A stretch of DNA of 64,000 nucleotides from Salvelinus alpinus (lineage: Eukaryota > Chordata > Actinopteri > Salmoniformes > Salmonidae): contig NC_092120.1 of the NCBI RefSeq assembly GCF_045679555.1, forward strand, positions 10,841,305 through 10,905,304, read 5' to 3'. The stretch's first letter is position 1. Each line of letters begins with the position of its first letter. Both the position numbers and the translations under genes were made by a program. This document shows, one piece after another, positions 320 to 51,261 of this stretch. Below the pieces are notes generated by a model, which had not been told where the DNA came from, ran no database searches, and worked only from the letters and a program-made list of their open reading frames with translations.

Positions 320-492
320 GCATCATCAAACTGCGCCGGAGCCCCCCTCCTATCCTGCGTGGCCCCCAGTACATCCTCAACATTACCGCCACTGATGACA
401 ACGCGGCAGACGGACCCTATCCCCTCAGTAACTCCGCCCAGGTCATAGTGGGCATCAACGACATCAACAACAACAAGCCTGTCTTTGAACAG
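320..492 (+). CDS. Cadherin exon e1 (residues 1-58 of the window-encoded part)
   Basis: Second half of a cadherin repeat, read in the frame giving [20 protein letters not shown] and ending in the linker [10 protein letters not shown]. The acceptor is tctctttag at 311-319 and the donor is CAG|gtagga. The exon opens two bases into a codon, so coding exons must lie upstream of position 1. Confidence 0.88.

Positions 493-51261: not shown

Follow-up and report, generated by a model that had tools for sequence, protein, structure and literature searches.

The 3′ part of a probable type III classical cadherin gene in the genome of Salvelinus alpinus

Gene structure at the locus

The window, the whole stretch of 64,000 nucleotides that was analysed, corresponds to C35:10841305-10905304 in a genome of 2.37 Gb in 928 contigs and carries 27 exons on its plus strand between positions 320 and 51261, as established by stop-to-stop reading and inspection of splice sites. 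The first-pass annotation had placed 27 exons, all in phase and without a stop, between the same outer coordinates, and this stands: in the joined exon model all introns are GT-AG (26/26), the frame is kept across every junction and 2219 codons end in the only stop, leaving 2218 stop-free coding codons, while the remaining two frames contain 85 and 93 stops. The GC content at the third codon position of the joined exons is 0.73. As the exons were selected for openness, their open frame cannot by itself serve as a fair test against chance, which the domain scores and the second copy provide; the Pfam E-values and the recurrence of all 27 exons in that copy rule chance out. The exons, all on the plus strand and with cadherin repeats (EC) numbered by published markers, are:

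320-492, +, exon 1 of the window (internal), end of EC7
1400-1568, +, exon 2, first half of EC8 with the first Cys of the stable pair, residue 58
1700-1870, +, exon 3, second half of EC8 with Cys 148
2940-3112, +, exon 4, EC9
10881-11048, +, exon 5, end of EC9 and start of EC10 with the Ca2+-free-type linker NVHNQPPQW
17771-18020, +, exon 6, EC10
19929-20056, +, exon 7, end of EC10 and start of EC11
20210-20396, +, exon 8, EC11
21270-21413, +, exon 9, end of EC11 and start of EC12
29035-29318, +, exon 10, EC12 and start of EC13
31053-31682, +, exon 11, EC13-EC14 and start of EC15
31798-32794, +, exon 12, EC15-EC17 and start of the NC region
33388-33481, +, exon 13, degenerate cadherin-like part of the NC region
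35789-35982, +, exon 14, degenerate cadherin-like part of the NC region
36358-36593, +, exon 15, NC domain (Pfam Ig_Shg)
37312-37589, +, exon 16, end of NC and CE1 (EGF)
37686-37900, +, exon 17, end of CE1 and start of LG1
38612-38739, +, exon 18, LG1
38895-39022, +, exon 19, LG1
40029-40140, +, exon 20, end of LG1
41184-41364, +, exon 21, CE2 (EGF)
41468-41634, +, exon 22, LG2
41734-41998, +, exon 23, LG2
47894-48074, +, exon 24, end of LG2 and first EGF-like unit behind LG2
48211-48464, +, exon 25, last EGF and most of the membrane helix
50310-50467, +, exon 26, end of the membrane helix and juxtamembrane domain
50668-51261, +, exon 27, catenin-binding tail, with the stop TAG at 51259-51261

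The gene had also been described as complete-looking, which does not apply to the window. Exon 1 starts in phase 1 behind a splice acceptor and inside a cadherin repeat, with one base owed by an upstream exon, so that the gene must begin to the left of the window; neither a start codon nor a signal peptide is present in the 27-exon model within the window. Within the 80 kb preceding the window, read up to 2500 bases short of it, an open exon begins with a Met (C35:10769655, 71.7 kb upstream) and a hydrophobic, signal-peptide-like stretch followed by divergent repeats. More repeat-like exons, an incomplete set, lie between this exon and the window, and material of this kind extends up to 72 kb upstream. 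A single gene from signal peptide to tail, the N-terminal half of which was read in pieces, would span approximately 123 kb from Met to stop.

Domain architecture and class assignment

The encoded protein comprises, in this order, the last part of a cadherin repeat, EC8-EC17 as ten complete repeats, an NC domain, EGF, LamG, EGF, LamG, two EGF-like units, a membrane helix and a tail. Submitted to Pfam in pieces, the joined protein gives 11 Cadherin stretches (E 9.4e-176), the NC domain as Ig_Shg, the model of the DE-cadherin NC domain (E 2.8e-23, 82.9 bits vs a cut-off of 27), and subsequently EGF (1.5e-8), Laminin_G_2 (1.4e-22), EGF (7.9e-5), Laminin_G_2 (3.4e-17) and EGF (2.5e-6). Both EGF-like units behind LG2, in the CE3 region, possess six Cys; the second passes the Pfam cut-off and the first is sub-threshold (EGF_Hmr-1, 0.027). 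There is one hydrophobic membrane helix and no seven-helix domain, an EEGGGE juxtamembrane motif and a tail stretch starting with GSLSSLGS are both present, and the tail fits the classical cadherin tail model PF01049 (E 3e-16). The earlier reading of cadherin repeats, NC-EGF-LamG-EGF-LamG-EGF-EGF, one helix and the two cytoplasmic motifs is thus confirmed, with the penultimate EGF-like unit below the Pfam cut-off.

Against the PDB, a query of the juxtamembrane region and the tail with the His-rich stretch left out retrieved three E-/EP-cadherin tails only (best 1.7e-11) and aligns with E-cadherin over both regions, while window positions 50644-51261 (the last exon and the eight preceding codons) retrieved three E-/EP-cadherin tails (best 5.9e-6) and, by its His run, one adhesion GPCR construct. 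The best matches of the ectodomain pieces are CELSR1, protocadherins and neurexins; these matches of the repeats and the EGF/LamG block reflect which structures are solved and do not separate the families, which are told apart here by the NC domain and the tail only. No DN-cadherin structure was recovered from the PDB by sequence among the best 60 of 121 and the best 60 of 155 matches.

Type III cadherins are characterized by 14-17 repeats followed by NC-CE1-LG1-CE2-LG2-CE3, and three markers are published for them (PMC5473995, in the portion accessible): EC8, the counterpart of DE-cadherin EC1, has a stable Cys pair; the linker between EC9 and EC10 is Ca2+-free; and the Ca2+ motifs of EC5-EC6 contain two Cys in chordates and echinoderms. 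The present gene encodes NC-CE1-LG1-CE2-LG2-CE3 with two LG domains. Its first full repeat, corresponding to DE-cadherin EC1, contains Cys 58 and Cys 148, the linker between the next two repeats (EC9-EC10) reads NVHNQPPQW without DRE and DXD motifs, and upstream exons carry DENDC and ARDCD, read as the EC5-EC6 Cys pair of chordates and echinoderms. The stable pair and the linker were placed by a crude motif reading, which misses variants such as ALDAD and MDFE, and the protein has other Cys pairs as well (702, 710). Set against the 14 to 17 repeats of the class, 10 full repeats and one end were counted in the window, with further repeat exons in the partial upstream reading.

Counting back from the NC domain had yielded EC7-EC17, which set the Ca2+-free linker one repeat off its published position, and the three markers shifted this numbering by one. 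All three markers are compatible with a single numbering, by which the window comprises the end of EC7 and EC8-EC17 and residues 1143-1254 fall in the NC region. This degenerate repeat scores below the Pfam cadherin cut-off (24.4 vs 28.8 bits); counting it as a repeat would bring the marker numbering to 18, above the published maximum of 17.

A type IV cadherin, which would have 7 or 9 repeats and a single LG, was discarded because the window encodes 10 full repeats along with two LG domains, and types I/II, which have five repeats without NC, EGF and LamG, are contradicted by the Pfam domains of the protein. The assignment to the type III classical cadherins, already made at first sight of the sequence, is backed by the domain order NC-CE1-LG1-CE2-LG2-CE3 together with the catenin tail and the three published markers. 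With a probability of about 0.93, the 27 exons and 2218 codons in the window form the 3′ part of a functional type III classical cadherin gene from a fish.

Second copy, selection and mobile elements

All 27 exons occur, in the same order, a single further time in the genome, on contig C4. The alignments cover each C4 exon completely apart from exon 12, in which they stop two bases before the end, and exon 1, in which they leave out the first base; taken full length, the C4 exons show AG and GT at the junctions (the first base of exon 1 and its acceptor lying outside the comparison) and no premature stop. The C35 and C4 copies differ at 157 of 6657 bases and at 55 of 2218 residues, which translates into a dS of 0.065, a dN of 0.012 and a ratio of 0.18, with 0.15 to 0.30 for individual regions (pairwise Nei-Gojobori, own implementation). 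This dN/dS indicates purifying selection between the copies; that selection is probably keeping the gene had been deduced from the open frame and is now backed by measurement. Over the whole locus, with exons counted in, alignments longer than 300 bases show 84-98% identity. Genome size and pairing suggest that the two copies lie on a chromosome segment duplicated in the manner of salmonids, and the repeats, too, would fit a salmonid-like fish. At residue 586 (exon 10), in the EC12 Ca2+ motif, the window gene reads NCNDE and the C4 copy NRNDE.

Several repeats and mobile elements lie within the introns or elsewhere in the window:

3234-8623, minisatellite of 134 copies x 40 bases in intron 4, largely missing from the C4 copy
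19231-19284, UnaL2 LINE 3′ hairpin, the sole Rfam match of the window at gathering scores
27129-28584, Tc1/mariner-like element (own reading) with 151-base inverted ends, 93% complementary
42261-47675, antisense to the gene, Ty3/gypsy LTR retrotransposon in intron 23 with near-identical end repeats
49141-49512, DDE_3 transposase fragment in intron 25

Intron 23 measures 5895 bases and its C4 counterpart 451, owing to the Ty3/gypsy insertion. The frames of this element are open, with a gag-like frame at 46166-47191 and a pol-like frame at 43002-46265 with RT, RNase H and integrase domains, and, as it is absent from the C4 intron, it probably inserted after the duplication and recently. Intron 4 extends over 7768 bases compared with 4000 in the C4 copy. 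Its minisatellite is stop-free in all three plus frames over more than 1800 codons and constitutes a trap for ORF-based gene finders. The two small frames of the Tc1/mariner-like element gave no Pfam domains, and the C4 copy has both ends of the element without 27316-28108. No tRNA was predicted in the window by ARAGORN. A second long tandem array, recognizable by staggered self-alignments with a 40-base step, is located upstream of the window (L014-L015, C35 about 10820984-10828881) and is present in both copies.

Six related loci

A genome search in which the best candidates were scored placed the NC model above its cut-off in at least eight exons at no fewer than six loci, on C35, C4, C5, C33, C9 and C15, while 14 control genomes gave 0 matches. 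The juxtamembrane exon (150 of 241 candidates scored) and the catenin-binding tail accompany the NC domain at all six; the designation type III rests at C5, C33, C9 and C15 on the NC domain and the tail, the repeats and LamG domains having been read at the other two loci only. Identity to the window gene in the NC/CE1 exon amounts to 55-57% for each of the four genes on C5, C33, C9 and C15 (C4 being outside this comparison), C5 and C33 share 99% and C9 and C15 90% identity, and 67-70% is observed across these pairs, which divides the loci into two diverged groups and three pairs.

The tails on C9 and C15 were not among the 13 matches of the first tail search, and the window protein gave only the juxtamembrane exon in L032 and L033. 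The notion that these two genes are devoid of a beta-catenin-binding tail was abandoned when the C5 tail as query found the tail at both; as the C15 tail is located inside L033 though the window protein had missed it, the earlier miss was a matter of sensitivity. Weaker NC-like matches of 25% identity on C7, C21 and C22 belong to loci considered FAT-like by own reading, which covered C7 alone.

Alternative readings

The domain composition also invites the view that the gene encodes a FAT- or CELSR-like atypical cadherin of which the EGF and LamG domains have been over-read, to which we assign next to no likelihood. CELSR1 is indeed among the best PDB matches over the EGF-LamG-EGF-LamG-EGF stretch, and the FAT-like loci (own reading) of the genome share a weak NC-like region of 22-25% identity, but the FAT-like hits are not among the six loci where the NC model passes its cut-off, a single helix stands in place of a seven-helix domain, and the tail fits PF01049 and the E-/EP-cadherins in the PDB. 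FAT and CELSR tails are not known to fall within PF01049. The first-pass annotation had named a best reciprocal FAT or CELSR match over the tail as refuting evidence; the PDB search of the tail returned neither family, finding E-/EP-cadherins instead; an origin from these families is rejected on the tail, the NC domain and the single helix.

Very improbable as well is a decaying duplicate, whereby the C4 copy does the work and the window copy drifts under the load of an intronic retroelement and an intronic minisatellite of 5.4 kb each. The expansion of introns 23 and 4 relative to the C4 copy would be in line with such a fate, while the 2218 codons without a stop or frameshift and the intactness of all splice sites in the window are not, and neither is the low dN/dS overall and by region, as long free drift would raise the ratio, even if a pairwise dN/dS does not tell which copy is constrained. 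A pseudogene is rejected on the intact frame, the splice sites and dN/dS. A reading that leaves the type III assignment untouched has considerably more weight, if somewhat less than even odds: the role of the chicken Hz-cadherin orthologue may belong to the C5/C33 and C9/C15 genes, which is consistent with the two diverged groups, the window gene being more distant from these four in the NC/CE1 exon than they are from each other across pairs.

Proposed function and comparison with known cadherins

Classical cadherins bind in trans via their repeats and hold p120- and beta-catenin in their tail (background in PMC5473995). By analogy to the family, the tandem cadherin repeats of the type III gene in the window most likely mediate Ca2+-dependent binding to the same protein on the adjacent cell, with a putative Ca2+-free hinge between EC9 and EC10 and the NC/EGF/LamG block adjoining the membrane, while the EEGGGE motif most likely holds p120-catenin and the region starting with GSLSSLGS beta-catenin; the catenin-bound tail would tie adhesion to actin. 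Neural or retinal expression may be guessed from chicken Hz-cadherin, a vertebrate nonchordate-type classic cadherin that is reported (Tanabe 2004) to be expressed in retinal horizontal cells.

Drosophila DN-cadherin (CadN), compared by partial descriptions, likewise has EC repeats followed by NC-CE1-LG1-CE2-LG2-CE3, one helix and a catenin tail, and its predicted partial Ca2+-free linker at DN EC7-EC8 fits the linker of the window gene; as a difference, 15 repeats are listed for the mature protein. Its EC1-EC11 have been reported as the adhesive unit and its repeats as bendable at sites fitting Ca2+-free linkers (PMC8325961, in excerpt). DE-cadherin (type IVa) shares the NC domain and the stable EC1 Cys pair, but has only 7 repeats and one LG, where the present gene has two LG domains and, within the window, 10 full repeats. 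E-/N-cadherin (types I/II) share the juxtamembrane region and the beta-catenin-binding tail, but possess five repeats and none of the NC, EGF and LamG domains, all three of which the window gene has.

The closest described counterpart by class is the teleost type III cadherin Pn-cadherin of the cichlid Pundamilia nyererei, compared by description, for which 14 repeats collinear with EC4-EC17 are given, EC1-EC3 being too divergent to detect, and which figures in an exon-intron comparison (PMC5473995, in the part at hand). As the type III class in fish is already in print in that article, the class is neither new nor surprising there, and the gene is an expected member. Entries termed 'neural-cadherin-like' are listed for brook charr and rainbow trout (PMC3362300, PMC7459646, both in excerpt), with no link to the window gene established.

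Less expected is that the genome seems to carry six type III genes; a description of several or six such genes in one fish was not found among the literature matches listed (titles and abstract starts, e.g. the best 10 of 1,452). Mammals appear to have lost type III cadherins (PMC10734073, in excerpt). A tentative proposal, possible rather than likely, is that the six genes, which form three pairs and two old type III groups and each carry an NC domain, a juxtamembrane motif and a beta-catenin-binding tail, may represent a diversified adhesion set of long cadherins that could label cell types, for example in the retina, and that would have been lost in mammals. A fish with several type III genes beside many five-repeat cadherins makes the function of the long and the short form comparable in one vertebrate.

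With respect to ancestry, the classical cadherins of bilaterians are held to derive from a type III form (PMC5473995, as far as accessible). The FAT-like locus L030 (C7:69496501-69499000; own reading) contains a weak NC-like stretch, 22% identical over 284 columns (E 9.6e-13), and the presence of such a stretch in a FAT-like protein hints that the NC domain may be older than the classical cadherins.
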